Source: Rudanella lutea DSM 19387 | Lineage (GTDB): Bacteria > Bacteroidota > Bacteroidia > Cytophagales > Spirosomataceae | Direction: 5' to 3' | NCBI RefSeq assembly: GCF_000383955.1 | Contig: NZ_KB913013.1 | Location: 4,359,694-4,423,693 of the forward strand | DNA length: 64,000 bases | In this document: positions 1-9,390 of the stretch, one piece after another | How the letters are laid out: the number at the start of each line of letters is the position of its first letter | Numbering within the stretch: the first letter of the stretch is position 1 | Made by a program: the position numbers and the translations under genes | The notes under the pieces: model-generated | Told to the model about the DNA's origin: nothing | The model's input: the letters and a program-made list of their open reading frames with translations, nothing else | Databases searched by the model: none

Positions 1-1346
1 TGCGGGTAAGAAGTCTCTAAGAGGCTTCTTATTTTTCCTGTTTTTTCGTAAGTGCTAAAAGCATTACTATCTGAGTTGGTAATAAGATCATTTACATTGC
101 GTAACAAACAAGGAGTCTGCCCCTCAGCAGTGTTATTCCATCCTATTGACTTTATTGAAAAAGAAGAATCTGTCACTACCGCCCCAACTTGTCTGGATAT
201 ACAACCGGAGTTGTATTTGGCCGTATAAGCAATTTGCATACAGCGTTCTGTTGGTGTTGGTGTTATTATACCAGGCTGTAAGATCAATGCTAAGTATCTT
301 ATTAATGATTGTTTGAGTGTTCTACGAGTATCCCCGCTATTTGCATCATCGGTTGGGTTATAAAGGTATATATCGGAAGATTGGATACAACTTTTAATGT
401 CTTGTTTATAAAACTTTTCGTGAGCCTTAACATCATCATCATACTCTTGGTCTAAACGTTCTAATTCTCGTTTATTATAATGACTATCTAAGCGTTTGTA
501 GCGGTGTTCATTGTCAGTATTGATAGCAAACAGATAAAACGACGAGTAGCGCTCTTTGAAATAAAAAGCCTCCAATGAATTACGGATAGAATCTATAACT
601 ATCCATGTTTTCTTTCCCGTAAGCTTGTTTCTGCTACGTGTTGTCTCAATTATTTCATCTAATATTTTGGGGATTTTGTAGTAATCATCCGATTGCTTAG
701 AATTATCAATGGCGTTTCCTGACATCCTTATATTATTGCCAAAGTATTGATATGGTGATGCCTTTTCTGAGCTTTTGAGCCCATCAATCAGTACACGCTT
801 TATGGACTCTGCAAATTTTGACAACCTTCCGTCTTCTACATAAAACTTATAAGCTAAATCTTTCTTTCGTTCAACATCAGCACAATCACCACTTTTATCG
901 TCGACTGCCTCTATTGCAAGCTTTTCAATACGAAGCTCCTCGTATTCTTTTCGCAAAGTATTTCCATTGTGAACTATTTCTTTGTCTAGCCAACTTGTAA
1001 TATCGCTAGCACCTTTTTTGTACTCCTTGGCTAAATATGAAATAACAGCATCTAATTCATTCTCAAGAAGTATAGCAGTAATTATATCACTAGCGCGAAT
1101 TAGCGTAAATGGATCCCAATTGGATTGCATGAAATTATAAACTATACGATACTTCCTAGCTTCATTGTTGGTAAAATCCCGATTGATAGGTTGAGGGAAA
1201 TTGCACGCAGAAAAGGTCTGACTTCTTAATAGTTTAGCAACTTCTGTGCAGCCTGACCCAAGGCGGCCGGTAAGGCCGATTACCAGGAAGTCTTTTCTCA
1301 GATTGTACAGCTTATCCAAAGATGTCCCTTGCTTAGTAGTTTCCAT
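1..1346 (-). CDS. anti-phage dCTP deaminase-like protein (DCD/AvcD type), 3' part missing
   Basis: An open frame of 448 codons runs from ATG at 1346 off the left edge with no stop. The N-terminal part has a P-loop, GLTGRLGSGCT, at about residues 20-30. It is followed by a long nucleotide-kinase-like region containing TWIVIDSIRNS and, further on, the stretch FAINTDNEHRYKRL. From about residue 380 a cytidine/deoxycytidylate deaminase fold begins: CMQIAYTAKYNSGC, then SRQVGAVVTD and IGWNN. This order is that of anti-phage dCTP deaminases, which deplete dCTP/dCMP during infection. The catalytic HAE and PCxxC zinc motifs would lie beyond the window, so activity cannot be judged. It is the cargo gene of the island, downstream of the serine recombinase. 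A deaminase fused to a different kinase-like domain is the alternative. Confidence 0.78.
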   Translation of the reverse strand, partial: METTKQGTSLDKLYNLRKDFLVIGLTGRLGSGCTEVAKLLRSQTFSACNFPQPINRDFTNNEARKYRIVYNFMQSNWDPFTLIRASDIITAILLENELDAVISYLAKEYKKGASDITSWLDKEIVHNGNTLRKEYEELRIEKLAIEAVDDKSGDCADVERKKDLAYKFYVEDGRLSKFAESIKRVLIDGLKSSEKASPYQYFGNNIRMSGNAIDNSKQSDDYYKIPKILDEIIETTRSRNKLTGKKTWIVIDSIRNSLEAFYFKERYSSFYLFAINTDNEHRYKRLDSHYNKRELERLDQEYDDDVKAHEKFYKQDIKSCIQSSDIYLYNPTDDANSGDTRRTLKQSLIRYLALILQPGIITPTPTERCMQIAYTAKYNSGCISRQVGAVVTDSSFSIKSIGWNNTAEGQTPCLLRNVNDLITNSDSNAFSTYEKTGKIRSLLETSYP

Positions 1347-1656
1347 TTGTAGTTTTGCTTGGTAGTGGTGGACGAATGTGTGAAGACAACTTTATTTTGT
1401 TATTCATTTACGAAACTGCCATGTTCTCCCAGGCTAACATAGGTCAGTACAAGGTGCGGTAGGCGCGTATAGAATCCGTTCAAAATGGGAAAATACGATA
1501 TTTCATGAATTAAATCCCATAGGTAGTTAACAAGAACCATTAAGTTCTTTACATACGGCAGCTTAAATTGATGGATTCATCCGATGTCTAAACCGGCAGC
1601 AATACCGCTATGCTACAGTGTCGGTAGTGATTTAGTGGCATTCTATTCAAGGGGAA
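1347..1656 (-). other. 310-bp leader between recombinase and dCTP deaminase gene
   Basis: No open frame of note is present. The stretch is AT-rich and holds a small perfect hairpin, AAGAAC at 1532-1537 with GTTCTT at 1544-1549. In described AvcID systems the inhibitor AvcI is a small RNA encoded just upstream of avcD, so a leader of this length in this place is a candidate for such an RNA. I see no clear promoter consensus, and the RNA itself is inference. Confidence 0.3.
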
Positions 1657-2741: not shown

Positions 2742-3197
2742 GGTATTACCCACTTTGTCTTTTGTCCTTCACCGGTACTACTTTGGTAATACCTGCTTGT
2801 TTCAAGGAAGGGGCAGACGGTAATACCAGCGGTATTACCCGGCCGGTATTACCTGAAACCTTGGTATTACCGGCTGGTATTACCCGGCCGGTATTACCAG
2901 CGGTATTACCTGAAATCTTGGTATTACCTGGCCGGTATTACCGGCGGTATTACCTGAAATCTTGGTATTACCCGGCCGGTATTACCGCTGGTATTACCCG
3001 AAATCCTGGTATTACCCGGCGGTATTACCGGCGGTACTACCCGAAATCTTGGTATTACCCGGCCGGTATTACCTGAAATGTCGGTATTACCCGGCGGTAT
3101 TACCCAAAATCCTGGTATTACCCGGCCGGTATTACTAGCGGTATTACCTGAAATGTCGGTATTACCCGAAATCCTGGTATTACCTGGCGGTATTACC
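2742..3197. repeat. GGTATTACC repeat array (about 26 direct copies, 2 inverted)
   Basis: Units of GGTATTACC begin at 2742, 2831, 2845, 2863, 2876, 2890, 2902, 2920, 2934, 2946, 2964, 2979, 2990, 3009, 3021, 3051, 3065, 3083, 3096, 3114, 3140, 3159, 3176 and 3189. Single-base variants are at 3033 and 3129, and inverted copies GGTAATACC are at 2785 and 2819. The central part has a higher-order period of about 44-45 bp made of three units spaced roughly 14, 12 and 18 bp, with TGAAATCTT-like spacers. The last unit supplies the stop codon of the primase gene. Dense short direct repeats beside a replication protein suggest iterons of an origin. The spacing does not fit CRISPR. Confidence 0.9.
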
Positions 3198-3972
3198 CAG
3201 CAAAACAGGCCCGCGCTTTACGAATACTCCGCTCGATATAGCTATGCACATGTCTGCCTTTTCGTTGGATGAGGTTAGGGCTGTGTTGGAGCAAATGAGC
3301 GGTAATTTGCGTGTCAGTACGTCCCAGCTTTATCAGACCGCAGATAATTCCAAAATCATGTTCGCTTTCACTATTGAGCTGGGTAGCATGAATAGAAGAA
3401 GGCATCGCCTGTATTGATACATCCTCTTTCGGCACGCCCCCCCCCGAGGGGTAAAAAGTAGACAGGCGGTAGTGCGCTTTGCACAAGCGGACAAAAGGGT
3501 AATAGCCGTTAGCTTGCCGATGTTTCTCCTTACGATTCGTAAATCCAGGCAGACGGCCAACATGGTCGGGCTCAGCGCTGGCTAGGTCACCGCCTAGTTG
3601 CTCTGCTAGCTGGCGACAATTGGCCAGGGCGTTGGCTCGGTCGGGGGGGAGTTCGGAAAGAATCAACCAGGCTTGGTAATTGGCTGGACTAGTCTCAATG
3701 AGCAGACAAGGTTTTAGAGAAGCCAGCGCCGTAAGCGACGACCGAGTAAGGTCATCGAGCAGCACGTACTGCCACCCTATTGGGCGAACATAAATATTGA
3801 AGCCTTGTCCATTCTTGTACCGCAAATAGCTAACGGACCGAAGTAATTGCTCGGGAGTGTACTCGACCCAAAAGGCATCTTCTGTTTGGGGATGGTGCAC
3901 TTGAATCTTATAGCGTTCAGCTCGTAGCGCGTCCGCAAAAGTTTGCACGATAACCCCGGTTGCTGTTGTCAT
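3193..3972 (-). CDS. RepB-like DNA primase of a mobile element
   Basis: 259 residues. The pattern FNIYVRPIGWQYVLLDDLT, then LLIETSPANYQAWLILS, then GDLASAEPDHVGRLPGFTNRK is that of the RepB-type primase/polymerase domain found in plasmids, satellites and phages (archaeo-eukaryotic primase-like). The two aspartates in LLDDLT and the His-Val-Gly-Arg-Leu-Pro-Gly-Phe block are the conserved core. The C-terminal 80 residues form a helical tail. Its likely job is priming replication of the excised island, together with the VapE-like ATPase encoded upstream in the same direction. Repeat fields lie on both sides of the gene, and its stop codon falls inside the last GGTATTACC unit. Confidence 0.8.
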   Translation of the reverse strand: MTTATGVIVQTFADALRAERYKIQVHHPQTEDAFWVEYTPEQLLRSVSYLRYKNGQGFNIYVRPIGWQYVLLDDLTRSSLTALASLKPCLLIETSPANYQAWLILSELPPDRANALANCRQLAEQLGGDLASAEPDHVGRLPGFTNRKEKHRQANGYYPFVRLCKAHYRLSTFYPSGGGVPKEDVSIQAMPSSIHATQLNSESEHDFGIICGLIKLGRTDTQITAHLLQHSPNLIQRKGRHVHSYIERSIRKARACFAG

Positions 3973-4354: not shown

Positions 4355-5605
4355 CTATTCCATGATGACCCAATACCCCTGAATAGAGTAAGATTTCTGG
4401 CCTTTGTGACGATTGCTTATGCGTTTACCACACTGGGCCTTGATGGCTGTTTGCAGTTTGTAAACATTGATAGGGGCACGAGTTTTAGTGGCTAGTCGAT
4501 TGTAGATGTCAGTGGCGGTGAGATGTTCAGCTCCAGGGGCATGTGGTTTGCTCGGCTTTATATACTGTTCGACTAACTCTAGCTCATAGCTGCGGACCAT
4601 GAATTCTTTATTCTTCTTTTCGGAGTACTTAATTTCTTCGCCTGTGAGTTCGGCAGCATACCCCCCTTTACACAAGGCATAAGCTTGAGCCCAGACCAGG
4701 TCAATGTCAATATTCTGACTGTAGCCTTTCTCGCCACCATAGTCATGGAGAATCTTTCGCACGTCGAAAACGAGCCAGCGAACATTGCCTGTTGTATCGG
4801 TGAGAAACTCATCTTGATTGGTGGTGCCAAAGAAACTAGCTCGGCGTCTATCAAGGTGATCACGCTTGCCAAAAGGTCTTCGTAATTTGATGGTGGCAGT
4901 GGTCAACATGGCTTTTATTTTGCCAATGTTGGGTTCTGGCATCTTATCCATGTCGTCCAGGAAAACGAATAGGTTTGTGGCCAGGCTGATGTAGCCATCC
5001 TTGCTCTGAAAATCAATGAATTCAGTAGCGTAACGCTGCATGGCAGGAGGGAATAAGAAGCGAACAAATGATGTTTTACCGTCATTTTGCTCGCCTTTTA
5101 AAATAAAGCAATGTTTGTTGAAGGGAAGGCTACCGATGCCACAAGCCACTACTCGTACAAGCATCTTTTTAAACATACTTTCAAACCATTTTTGGTCTGT
5201 TGTTTTGACAAAGCCTGCTAATTGACGTATGTAATCGGGTTGGGATTCATCCCACTTGGGAAGCTGCTCGAAGTAAGCCGCGAGGGGATCATAACGCGGC
5301 ACGTAACTAGAGCCAAGCAACGCTGACAGGGGTTTGTCGAACGCTTTATAGTTGGCTTCGTAAAGTTGGCAGTTGAGATCGTCCGGGTTAAGTACCAGCC
5401 AGTCTGCTGTAGAACGAGCGGGTTTAGCTTCGAGATCATTGGAAACGATGTTGAGCCGGAAGGTATATCGCGCGTTGAGAAAGTTTTTGAGCCGTACAAT
5501 GAGCGGTTCTTCTCCCTTATAATGCTTGACTGTTGAATTCTTAGGTTTGCCCGATTCGGGTTCAATAGCGATAATAGCCATATCGTCAGTGAGCGTTTTG
5601 TTCAC
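4355..5605 (-). CDS. VapE-like (virulence-associated E) superfamily-3 helicase-type ATPase
   Basis: 416 residues. A Walker A motif, GEQNDGKTS, lies near residue 172. A Walker B motif, LFVFLDDMDKM, lies near residue 215. The sensor/arginine-finger region RRASFFGTTNQDEF is followed by GNVRWLVFDV. This order matches the VapE/VirE family of mobile-element P-loop ATPases, which act as replicative helicases in phage satellites and ICEs. The frame opens with GTG at 5605; the ATG at 5581 is an alternative start that loses 8 residues. It lies upstream of the primase gene in the same direction, separated by the TGTAGTCA field, and together they form the replication module of the island. Confidence 0.82.
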   Translation of the reverse strand: MNKTLTDDMAIIAIEPESGKPKNSTVKHYKGEEPLIVRLKNFLNARYTFRLNIVSNDLEAKPARSTADWLVLNPDDLNCQLYEANYKAFDKPLSALLGSSYVPRYDPLAAYFEQLPKWDESQPDYIRQLAGFVKTTDQKWFESMFKKMLVRVVACGIGSLPFNKHCFILKGEQNDGKTSFVRFLFPPAMQRYATEFIDFQSKDGYISLATNLFVFLDDMDKMPEPNIGKIKAMLTTATIKLRRPFGKRDHLDRRRASFFGTTNQDEFLTDTTGNVRWLVFDVRKILHDYGGEKGYSQNIDIDLVWAQAYALCKGGYAAELTGEEIKYSEKKNKEFMVRSYELELVEQYIKPSKPHAPGAEHLTATDIYNRLATKTRAPINVYKLQTAIKAQCGKRISNRHKGQKSYSIQGYWVIME

Positions 5606-6599: not shown

Positions 6600-6854
6600 T
6601 TATTCGGATAGAGCTTTGGCTAATTGCTCAGGCTTGATACCAGTGAGAAAGAATCGTTCAACCTCGGAACGGCGGAATCGTGTAAGCCTACTATTAGGGG
6701 TTGGGTCTGGCCGGTAAGCCTTAATGTAGCCGTTTGCTACCAGCTGCCAGAATTTCGTGTTACTCAGCTTGAATATACGTTTGCATTCAGCTGGTGTTAA
6801 CCATTCACTTATCTCGATGGCTAAGGGCTTTACCTGGGGGATATGCTGTGTCAT
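6600..6854 (-). CDS. excisionase-like helix-turn-helix protein
   Basis: 84 residues. The segment WLTPAECKRIFKLSNTKFWQ followed by LVANGYIKAYRPDP and SRLTRFRRSEVERFF is the winged-helix pattern of MerR/HTH_17-type excisionases and AlpA-like regulators. It is a short basic protein encoded near the integrase, as expected for a recombination directionality factor. It may also regulate the genes to the left. The start ATG at 6854 is followed directly by a plausible N-terminus. Confidence 0.75.
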   Translation of the reverse strand: MTQHIPQVKPLAIEISEWLTPAECKRIFKLSNTKFWQLVANGYIKAYRPDPTPNSRLTRFRRSEVERFFLTGIKPEQLAKALSE

Positions 6855-6944: not shown

Positions 6945-7865
6945 TCACCTTTCCTCGGCATCCTTAAAAGCCATTGCTATCTCGGAGTCGTTCATTAGCA
7001 TTTTGTTGATGCCTATTTTTATCCCTTCAAGAGCCCTTGAATCGCCTATAACCCTCATAAACTGATCCTCAAAAGAACCGGTTACCCATTCACGTATAGT
7101 GAATAATTCTCTACGAACAATTGGTGGAATGTATTTAGGATCATATTGCCCGGATTCGTTCCTCATGATATCAATGTAGTATTGTAATTGCCAAAATGAA
7201 GGAGGGTATTCGTTTCTTAAATCTCTAACTTCTTTTATGAAGTGGCTGTATAGAAAGACCATTGCAGCAACAGTGCGGGGTGATTCCGGTAAGATTTCCC
7301 CAAAATGTAGTAAAGCAGTCTCTACTAAGTCACCTTCATCTTCAGATTCTGGATCATGTACCCACACCTGGTGTATTATCTCATCAATGTTAATCCACTC
7401 TTGATCATTGTGGTACACCTCCGTTGCAACTTCTTGAAAGACATTATTAACTCTACTTCGTAAGTACGAGTTGACCGCCGTATCAAGCAAATAGGGGGGC
7501 CAATAGTGAAAATTCCAATGAACTGCAGTATTTAAATTAAAATTTGGATTGTCAAACGGTTTTTGCTTGAGTATCTGTTGTATAATAATGTACTCTTCAT
7601 TCTCTATATCTTGAATTAGCGGACTATAATGAGGAAGTGGATTCTCACCTTGAATATGAGCAAATACATCTTCAGAATAGTACTCTGTTAATTTGCTCTT
7701 CAAGCGGGTTAGTTGTCCTTTGACTTTTATCCTAACATAGATCGGATAAAGATGGATTTCCTCATATCCATCCTCATTTGTTTGTACGCTTAACTTGGGT
7801 TTCAAGTTAGTATTGAGATAATGCTTTACAGAAATCTTCTGTCCGTGTTTATTATCGTGCTGCAT
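6945..7865 (-). CDS. unknown protein with integrase-arm-like N-terminus
   Basis: 306 residues. Residues 10-55 (ISVKHYLNTNLKPKL, then LYPIYVRIKVKGQ) resemble the N-terminal arm-binding domain of Bacteroidota tyrosine integrases, but no catalytic domain follows. The rest is acidic, rich in aromatic residues and mostly helical, with no family that I recognise. The gene is strikingly AT-rich. It ends 90 bp from the HTH gene and starts 18 bp downstream of the integrase stop, so the three are probably one transcript. It could compete with or assist the integrase at arm sites, but this rests on a weak similarity. Confidence 0.6.
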   Translation of the reverse strand: MQHDNKHGQKISVKHYLNTNLKPKLSVQTNEDGYEEIHLYPIYVRIKVKGQLTRLKSKLTEYYSEDVFAHIQGENPLPHYSPLIQDIENEEYIIIQQILKQKPFDNPNFNLNTAVHWNFHYWPPYLLDTAVNSYLRSRVNNVFQEVATEVYHNDQEWINIDEIIHQVWVHDPESEDEGDLVETALLHFGEILPESPRTVAAMVFLYSHFIKEVRDLRNEYPPSFWQLQYYIDIMRNESGQYDPKYIPPIVRRELFTIREWVTGSFEDQFMRVIGDSRALEGIKIGINKMLMNDSEIAMAFKDAEER

Positions 7866-7883: not shown

Positions 7884-9149
7884 TCACAAATCCTTGGGGA
7901 GCGTTTTTGATGTTTGTGGGCTCTTGGCATTGGAGCCGGTATTCCATTCTGTCCTGGAAAGTATCTTAACCACATCATGATTGGTCAAATGCACGTACTT
8001 CATCGTCATTTGTGGCTTTGAATGCTGAGCCAGGCGTTGAACAACGTGCATAGGAATCCCTATCTCCAGCAAAAAGGTGATGCCTGAGTGTCTTGCGGTG
8101 TGGAAATAAGCTGGCTTGTTAATTCGGGCCATTCGGAATAGAACCTTCAAATTCCGATTGATAACCTGGTCTGTACGGCCGAACAATGGTTTCTGATCAT
8201 CGCGGGTGTATCGCTTAATCAACTGCACAGGTTTGCTCTGACCATTTTCATCAAGGTGCAGTTCGTAAAGAGGTATCCAGTTATGTTTCCCCGTCTTCTT
8301 CGCTTTGAGATCGATACACAACCCTCTTTCCGTCTCTATCAAATGAGACTGCCGTAGGCGTGTTATGTCGCTAATACGCAACAACGTGTAATAGCCGAAA
8401 AGATAGGCATCCCGGTAGATGGCATACCTTGAGTTTTCACCAGTGAGATCTAATTGTTCTAAACGACGTATTTCATTGGGTTGTACTACATCGATGATAG
8501 ACTCCCCGTTTTTGATGGCGAAGTTCAAATAGGGGTTAGTATTTGCATCAAACAGGCCCTTGCGAGTGGCTAAGCTTAGATACTTCTTAATCCCCTTATG
8601 GTGTTTGTAAATAGTAGACTTCTCTTTGGCCCGCCCAGATGCTCGTAGCCATGATTCAAAGCCTTCAACGAAGTCGTATGTGATGTCTTTGAATTGTACA
8701 GGTACGTCTTTGTTGTAAAGCTTCAGATATTCATTGGTACGCAAATAGCGTTGGGTTGTATCCTCAGAGACTTTGTGCTTATCCTGCTCACACTGTCTGA
8801 TGACAAATTCTGTAAATGTCAGTGCTGGAGCTTTTGAGTCAGAAGACGATTGGTTATCTGTAGAGCTGTCAAAATCGTCTAATGTGAATGGACGTCCGAA
8901 AATGGCTGGGAAGCGGAGCTCAAAGGTTTCCAACTCGCGGATGCGATCTCGAATCAGCGTGTTATATGATGGATTACCTTTCACTTCGTTTTTTCGTTTA
9001 TCCCATTCAGCTGGTTTCAGCCTGATACCTGTTTTGAAGTACCGACGTCGACCATTCATCATGGCCTCAATAATCACTGATGCTTTACCCTGTGTGTCGA
9101 GTCGATTGGCCCGATTGTAGAGAACTCGATACGCTACTTTTCCTGTCAT
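7884..9149 (-). CDS. tyrosine site-specific integrase
   Basis: 421 residues. An arm-type N-terminal domain (VIIEAMMNGRRRYFKTGIRL, then KPAEWD) is followed by a SAM-like core-binding domain and a C-terminal catalytic domain. Catalytic residues are visible: Arg in YTLLRISDITRLR, His and Arg in FHTARHSG, His in RLAQHSK, and Tyr in MKYVHLTNHD. It lies 168 bp from the 3' end of tRNA-Asp, pointing away from it, so it most likely catalysed insertion there. Length and domain order are usual for Bacteroidota element integrases. Confidence 0.93.
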   Translation of the reverse strand: MTGKVAYRVLYNRANRLDTQGKASVIIEAMMNGRRRYFKTGIRLKPAEWDKRKNEVKGNPSYNTLIRDRIRELETFELRFPAIFGRPFTLDDFDSSTDNQSSSDSKAPALTFTEFVIRQCEQDKHKVSEDTTQRYLRTNEYLKLYNKDVPVQFKDITYDFVEGFESWLRASGRAKEKSTIYKHHKGIKKYLSLATRKGLFDANTNPYLNFAIKNGESIIDVVQPNEIRRLEQLDLTGENSRYAIYRDAYLFGYYTLLRISDITRLRQSHLIETERGLCIDLKAKKTGKHNWIPLYELHLDENGQSKPVQLIKRYTRDDQKPLFGRTDQVINRNLKVLFRMARINKPAYFHTARHSGITFLLEIGIPMHVVQRLAQHSKPQMTMKYVHLTNHDVVKILSRTEWNTGSNAKSPQTSKTLPKDL

Positions 9150-9280
9150 GGTTGCCGTTGTTTGTCAGTAACGGCTCAAACATATAGCGAAAATTTGTGT
9201 ATCAAATCTGTATCAAACAGGGCGAATTCTATGGTACTAAATGATACAAAAAAACTTTTTTAGTGCACGTGAAAACCGAA

Positions 9281-9313
9281 AAAAGCCCCTCAGTTTGCAC
9301 TGAGAGGCTTTTT
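9281..9313 (-). terminator. terminator downstream of tRNA-Asp
   Basis: AAAAGCCCCTCAG (9281-9293) pairs with CTGAGAGGCTTTT (9300-9312) with one mismatch. Read on the minus strand the stem is followed by TTTTCGG. It lies directly after the tRNA and probably belongs to the chromosome or to the element end. Confidence 0.6.
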
Positions 9314-9316
9314 GAG

Positions 9317-9345
9317 CGGTGCGGACGGGACTCGAACCCGCGACC
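9317..9345. other. candidate attachment site at the tRNA-Asp 3' end
   Basis: Tyrosine integrases of tRNA-borne elements usually recombine within the 3' half or T-arm of the tRNA, which stays intact at the integrase-proximal end. The T-arm and acceptor sequence here would be the shared att core. The second copy must lie left of the window, so the exact core cannot be set. Confidence 0.4.
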
Positions 9346-9390
9346 CCCTGCGTGACAGGCAGGTATTCTAACCGACTGAACTACCGCACC
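9317..9390 (-). tRNA. tRNA-Asp (anticodon GTC)
   Basis: On the minus strand the acceptor arms GGTGCGG (5' end at 9390) and CCGCACC pair perfectly, with discriminator G at 9317. The anticodon arm is CCTGC-CTGTCAC-GCAGG with anticodon GTC. The T-loop TTCGAGT and the D-arm AGTTCAGTCGGTTAGAAT are normal. CCA is not encoded. It is the likely integration target of the island. Confidence 0.97.

Follow-up and report, generated by a model that had tools for sequence, protein, structure and literature searches.

A probable anti-phage deaminase of a separate deep branch on a tRNA-Asp island of Rudanella lutea

An intact deaminase gene on an island at tRNA-Asp

The stretch of DNA analysed here, hereafter the window, comprises 64,000 nucleotides of Rudanella lutea DSM 19387 (G000:C1:4359694-4423693; genome of 6.5 Mb in 4 contigs). 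Its left edge cuts a 448-codon open frame on the reverse strand (3-1346), which begins with an ATG at 1346 and stays open past the edge. The DNA to the left was analysed as L002, whose coordinates become those of the window on subtraction of 15000. A further 235 codons from beyond the edge complete an intact protein of 683 residues with no internal stop in its frame (L002:14295-16346, reverse strand; window -705 to 1346). The features of the window that bear on this gene are:

1..1346, reverse strand: dCTP deaminase-type gene, 5' 448 of 683 codons, continuing to window -705; PF00383, PADLOC and NF041025 matches
1347..1656, reverse strand: upstream gap of 310 bp, with no sign of a structured or conserved RNA
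1416..1434, reverse strand: upstream copy of a 19-bp direct repeat, 18/19 identical to the copy in the gene's last codons
1657..2493, reverse strand: serine recombinase (Resolvase PF00239; Pfam)
3193..3972, reverse strand: RepB-type primase (PF16793, PF22448; Pfam), putative role in island replication
4355..5605, reverse strand: VapE-like protein (PF05272; Pfam), putative role in island replication
6600..6854, reverse strand: HTH_17 protein (Pfam), putative excisionase/regulator-like role
7884..9149, reverse strand: island-borne tyrosine integrase (PF00589, PF13102, PF17293; Pfam)
9279..9332, no strand: right att core of 54 bp, 98.1% identical to its partner at L002:6823-6876 (window -8177 to -8124)
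9316..9390, reverse strand: tRNA-Asp(gtc), the integration target, its 3' end within the att core

The 54-bp core, made up of the 3' end of the tRNA-Asp gene and adjoining DNA, bounds an island of 17.5 kb at both ends. In the congener G157 we found the empty site, at which a single core (L183:16014-16067), preceded by about 100 bp that have no match, joins both flanks (86.7% identity on the left, L002 1-6811, and 87.6% on the right). As these flanks stand on either side of one core, the island was inserted as one piece, and the two att cores together with the empty site bear out the preliminary description of the deaminase gene as cargo of a tRNA-Asp island. Two further congeners are uninformative on the empty site: only the right flank of G158 was matched in the stretch compared, and G159 is fragmentary. 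The deaminase gene has a G+C content of 38.1% as against 55-56% in both flanks. The remaining cargo encodes P0002 (655 aa), P0003 (119 aa), an Hsp70-like protein (828 aa), a GmrSD-type restriction protein (598 aa) and an HTH protein; the genes for the first three have 38-41% G+C and the GmrSD gene 50.9%. Between the integrase and the HTH_17 protein lies the gene for a 306-aa island protein with no Pfam match (window 6945-7865, 37.9% G+C). An array of GGTATTACC-type units (window 2814-3199; periods of about 44, 57 and 75-87 bp), possibly the replication iterons of the island, separates the serine recombinase gene from that of the RepB primase and extends into the 3' end of the latter.

The downstream copy of the 19-bp repeat (L002:14303-14321, window -697 to -679) encodes the final codons of the deaminase gene, and the exact 15-bp core of the repeat occurs at 2 places in the whole genome. 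The upstream copy, translated in frame, gives the terminus of a lost gene (AWENMAVS*); both copies here and one in G111, a genome of another genus, read A[GW]ENMA.. with a stop two codons later. An unrelated ORF of G111 ends in a way similar to the last ~30 residues of the deaminase; its tail is joined to a helicase fragment and lies directly before the same P0002 gene (L044:9077-9418). These last residues of the deaminase look like the scar of a neighbouring or lost gene, which might affect the protein, and the position ahead of P0002 has probably received new genes on more than one occasion, making it a site of gene turnover within the island. Since in-frame translation of the repeat copies yields the last codons of a lost gene, replacement of genes by recombination is the better reading. 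Two other candidates were set aside. The sole pointer to the serine recombinase as the mover of the deaminase gene is the 19-bp repeat, and nothing comparable flanks nine relatives: an exact flanking repeat of at least 13 bp occurs in 0/9 in the stretches compared, the longest being 12 bp, in L009. A helicase as the lost gene was likewise rejected, as the ORF of G111 joins the beginning of a helicase to this tail, and the complete helicases of L070 and L078 end otherwise.

The neighbouring genes P0002, P0003, Hsp70-like and GmrSD-type form a block (L002:7334-14206, reverse strand; window -7666 to -794), which is kept in G111 (L044:9496-16231) at identities of 49, 72, 81 and 79%, respectively, and lies there near a CBASS-type cyclase gene (SMODS). 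P0002 has one likely membrane helix, as judged by eye. The pairing of Hsp70 with P0003 recurs elsewhere, accompanied by a P0002-like gene (BLAST) at L049 and L072-L074 and, at L072, by a TerB-family gene; in a different family, two more genes with DUF262-like starts (L074:14030-17953) are seen by eye about 5 kb from another Hsp70/P0003 set. Counting its own genome, the GmrSD gene has matches in 3/222 genomes at E <= 1e-60. This Hsp70 is unmatched at the same threshold in the third of them, G112, so that the GmrSD/Hsp70 pair is not obligatory. The four genes might possibly constitute a chaperone-linked restriction unit; CoCoNuT type IV systems contain Hsp70-like domains, and GmrSD is a common neighbour of one type of them, according to PMC11090510. 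A functional link between the block and the deaminase was considered and rejected: no match to P0002-P0006 was seen at the loci of deaminase relatives (tblastn on L003-L009; blastp of island frames of at least 80 aa against the frames of L003-L009 and L019-L026), and G111 has the block with no match to the deaminase. The deaminase and the Hsp70/GmrSD genes thus look like separate cargo.

Domain make-up and family assignment

The preliminary description, drawn from the part of the frame within the window, had reported a P-loop and the start of a deaminase domain, and all its motifs lie where it placed them. The P-loop-like GLTGRLGSGCT spans residues 24-34 of the 683-aa protein, with Cys33 at the position of the Walker lysine, and the deaminase domain begins at about residue 365, with CMQIAYTAKYNSGC at residues 369-382 and SRQVGAVVTD at 384-393. 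The HAE and PCxxC pair, which that description had expected within about 150 residues leftward, is present about 40-72 residues past the edge (HAE at 488-490, PCELC at 516-520). The stop or different C-terminal domain just left of the window, which would have contradicted it, is absent, the frame staying open over the 235 codons with a complete deaminase signature. H488, A489, E490, P516, C517 and C520 are invariant in 11/11 aligned proteins, and the protein thus has both motifs, HAE and PCxxC, by which zinc-dependent deaminases of the CDA fold are recognised.

A Pfam search with the 683-aa protein recovered PF00383 at 56.6 bits (cut-off 25; E 2.6e-15), along with sub-threshold matches to MafB19-deam and, in the middle of the protein, AAA_18. 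In the PADLOC set the sole family at E <= 0.01 is dCTPase (PDLC02373; 431 bits, E 2.2e-129). These matches, together with five relatives in other genera (53-63% identical across about 610-640 residues) and two more at 44-45%, rule out a chance frame. NF041025, the NCBIfam equivalog for anti-phage dCTP deaminases, aligns over its entire length (1-437 of 437) with residues 20-580 at 365.3 bits, under the curated cut-off of 400. The anti-phage dCTP deaminase family is therefore the best match among defence-system profiles, as had been anticipated. The dCTPase profile is matched by all 10 further proteins scanned, namely seven of the long form, which has PCELC, and three of the short form, which has PCHxC. 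With NF041025, 3/3 short-form proteins score above the cut-off; of the seven long forms five score below it (347-392 bits) and two, from E. coli and Pantoea, above (425-433). The cut-off hence divides the long branch (347-433 bits across the eight long forms scanned), and annotation by NF041025 names only a part of it.

A search of PDB sequences with an 18-row profile recovered dCMP deaminases and, at profile positions 14-119, the dephospho-CoA kinase 2grj (E 0.002). An AlphaFold2 model was built for the closest relative, the L007 protein (63% identical to the window protein), from an 18-row alignment (mean pLDDT 75.6, pTM 0.68). Among the Foldseek matches listed for it dCMP deaminases rank first (4p9c, E 4e-5, TMt 0.75), including those of the phages S-TIM5 and T4, while within the best 50 of 522 matches the dCMP/dCTP deaminase of PBCV-1 ranks 21 and dephospho-CoA kinases rank 39 and 42, matching the other part of the protein. 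Within the same best 50 of 522 the structural matches of the kinase-like part are weak (TMt about 0.5). An earlier 7-row model (mean pLDDT 69.7) gave the same picture. The invariant motifs and the fold match together point to deaminase chemistry, and from the family the substrate would be dCTP or dCMP. The dCMP deaminases of S-TIM5, T4 and human resemble the C-terminal domain in fold and zinc motifs but are devoid of the kinase-like half and have a metabolic role.

Two deep branches of dCTP deaminase-type proteins

Of 77 loci taken, we set aside four in which the motif filter gave no complete frame (L088, L111, L112, L168) and L086, which is the window gene itself. The 72 remaining rows, which include near-copies and were recovered with NF041025 and with the window protein or an alignment of it, divide into 39 with PCELC (37 distinct sequences) and 33 with PCHxC. 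The P-loop of the PCELC rows is GSGC[ST] in 37/39, GAGCT in one (L171, read by eye) and GSGST in one (L092), placing Cys at the Walker lysine position in 38/39, Ser in 1/39 and Lys in 0/39; this long-form pattern is seen in 0/33 PCHxC rows. The GxxxxGK[ST] of an active P-loop kinase, with its Walker A lysine, was found upstream of the deaminase in 0/72 rows.

A tree of the deaminase part only (63 rows once identical stretches were removed) splits 31 PCELC from 32 PCHxC rows by one branch with 100/100 support, and places the window protein among the former rather than in the AvcD-like PCHxC group, which is represented here by sequences from E. coli, Zymomonas, Pseudosulfitobacter, Bacteroidota and viral contigs. 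The branch lengths separating the two groups are 2.7 and 2.0 changes per column; as the PCxxC motif lies inside the treed stretch the tree depends partly on the motif label, but the separation far exceeds what four columns could give. The groups also differ in length. SRQVG follows the P-loop by 326-369 residues in 38/39 PCELC rows (rows where the pattern matched). Its offset in the stop-to-stop frame is 356-433 for PCELC rows with a closed 5' end, as against 248-314 in 22/29 such PCHxC rows, amounting to about 100 extra residues ahead of the deaminase in the long branch. The preliminary description had ascribed the late start of the deaminase to a long kinase-like middle. This stands, with two corrections: the protein is by its sequence a member of a separate deep branch rather than a stretched or plain AvcD, and its P-loop is without the catalytic lysine. 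At such a distance from the AvcD-like branch the function of the long one may have drifted.

With NF041025 and the PADLOC dCTPase (PDLC02373) the window protein has in common the order of a kinase-like part followed by a deaminase, the full-length profile match, the catalytic motifs and a mobile and defence context; it differs in its score below the cut-off, PCELC in place of PCHxC, the ~100 extra residues and its separate branch. The long forms of E. coli and Pantoea, which RefSeq names 'anti-phage dCTP deaminase', have the same motifs and belong to the same branch (Pantoea L170 in the tree), but the window protein is only 38% identical to that of L100 and 38.9% to that of Pantoea, and the island and neighbours differ.

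Distribution and genomic neighbourhoods

The gene is patchily distributed. Within the family of this genome, 9/222 genomes have a match at E <= 1e-20 (its own included), of which eight are of the long form and one (G151) of the short; in a phylum sample NF041025 has hits at E <= 1e-20 in 10/335 genomes (this one among them), four of them above the cut-off. In E. coli a long-form DNA query matched 42/5426 genomes, 32 with at least 80% cover, and the long form of strain E47 has 99.8% DNA identity to L100. Both of the E. coli loci inspected adjoin an integrase and a CI repressor, and one of them also a second integrase; we read the former arrangement as P2-like and the extra genes of the one locus as a P4-like satellite. 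A published scan of E. coli for defence systems had dCTP deaminase on its list (PMC10121019), and the terms 'deaminase' and 'dCTP' are absent from the main text of PMC9122126, on P2/P4 hotspots.

Type I restriction-modification genes lie within about 10 kb of 6/9 long-form relatives (L003, L004, L006, L009 and L024 by Pfam; L007 with an HsdR fragment only), and by tblastn none were seen near L005, L008 and L025. Counted by tblastn, they occur at 5/9 long-form loci versus 0/8 Hsp70 loci of the same family, a contrast to be read with the fact that the queries came from four of the five positive loci, L009 alone being independent. At one Hsp70 locus outside this control set, L073, Hsd-like genes are apparent by eye. 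Farther afield, a relative in Picosynechococcus adjoins a methyltransferase and a restriction gene, that of Pantoea lies near two recombinase genes, and that of Eubacterium eligens is surrounded mostly by metabolic genes. In Geminocystis the relative, which is 43% identical and was left unclassed by the motif filter, is encoded on plasmid pGM01 (L168, 6362-9884) beside a divergent dGTPase gene, such that two nucleotide-draining enzymes adjoin.

Discussion

From the intact gene, its domain make-up, the conservation of its motifs, the island and its empty site, and the defence neighbourhoods of its relatives, we consider it likely that the gene encodes an anti-phage effector that acts alone, a dCTP deaminase belonging to the long branch. 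Its C-terminal half would be a zinc-dependent dCMP/dCTP deaminase domain (HAE...PCELC), preceded by an N-terminal half that is apparently built like a dephospho-CoA or NMP kinase. Phage infection would switch the deaminase on, upon which conversion of dCTP/dCMP to dUTP/dUMP would starve phage replication. The kinase-like half may serve as a nucleotide-binding sensor or regulator that holds the enzyme off before infection: a conserved P-loop minus its lysine suggests binding without catalysis, and phosphorylation by this half is unlikely. The island probably carries the deaminase to protect both the host and the element itself from competing phages.

The principle of defence by a deaminase is shared with the AvcID system of Vibrio, consisting of the deaminase AvcD and the RNA AvcI (PMC10511110; PMC9455884). 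In AvcID control is by RNA (PMC10511110), and AvcI is encoded upstream of AvcD (PMC9455884). One may hence ask if the window gene, too, is a type III toxin-antitoxin, with a small RNA made just upstream that restrains the deaminase and decays upon shut-off of transcription by the phage. Membership in the same superfamily, the mechanism published for AvcID (PMC10511110) and the 310 bp of non-coding DNA upstream of the gene are in line with this, but several approaches gave no sign of an AvcI-like RNA: Rfam at gathering scores has no match in L002, the upstream RNA has no excess stability over shuffles (z 0.45; 63/100 at least as stable), and no similarity was found among the upstream regions of 10 loci (400 bp, E 0.05). 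Two relatives, L007 and L006, have no room for such an RNA, the gap to the preceding gene being only 10 bp and 25 bp, respectively. Moreover, RNAalifold found next to no common structure in 12 long-form upstream regions of the E. coli/Pantoea-like type (10 from viral contigs), a weak test as the alignment mixes near-identical and unalignable rows. We therefore regard AvcID-type control as improbable for this gene, though an unstructured or fast-evolving RNA would be compatible with these results. Nine of these 12 regions share a block resembling, by eye, the 3' end of tmRNA; the annotation table of E. coli E47 lists no tmRNA there, and the block is probably an att remnant.

The same P-loop that suggests a regulator could instead belong to a kinase-like half with an activity of its own, such as nucleotide phosphotransfer or hydrolysis, which together with the deaminase would make a two-step dNTP-draining enzyme. 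Its retention in 39/39 long-form rows does call for a constraint; however, with Lys in 0/39 rows and Ser in one, a non-catalytic nucleotide-binding site explains the conservation equally well, and we rate an active kinase half as quite improbable. It is also very improbable that the scar at the 3' end has left the deaminase non-functional. Although the last ~30 residues are like the ORF tail of G111, no aligned relative ends in this way and 19-bp repeats flank the gene, the catalytic motifs are all intact in a frame without internal stops, and conservation fades after about residue 628 with the tails of relatives varying, which puts the scar beyond the conserved part. We give the least credence to a housekeeping or element-serving dCMP deaminase that feeds dTTP synthesis for host or island. 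The nearest solved structures, among the matches listed, are dCMP deaminases, and phages do carry such enzymes; but patchy occurrence (9/222), 38% G+C and residence in an island absent from a congener speak against this, as do the large kinase-like half and the defence neighbours of relatives. The genome, moreover, already possesses thymidylate synthase and, at L191:1447-1983, a small dCMP deaminase-like gene apart from this one (178 aa; PF00383, motifs by eye).

Returning to the stand-alone effector, a bolder version of it, which we put forward only tentatively and hold to be rather unlikely as a whole, is that the PCELC branch represents a second, mechanistically distinct kind of defence by nucleotide depletion. 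It would be RNA-free, and a pseudokinase half, with its Walker Lys replaced by Cys, would sense a phage-altered nucleotide and gate the deaminase within one polypeptide. If the long branch works as a defence, the label 'dCTP deaminase defence' would cover two old lineages, which differ in their active-site motifs and probably also in how they are controlled. Control by an RNA antitoxin, as published, could then not explain the long lineage, and the question of how the phage is sensed would become testable on a single protein.
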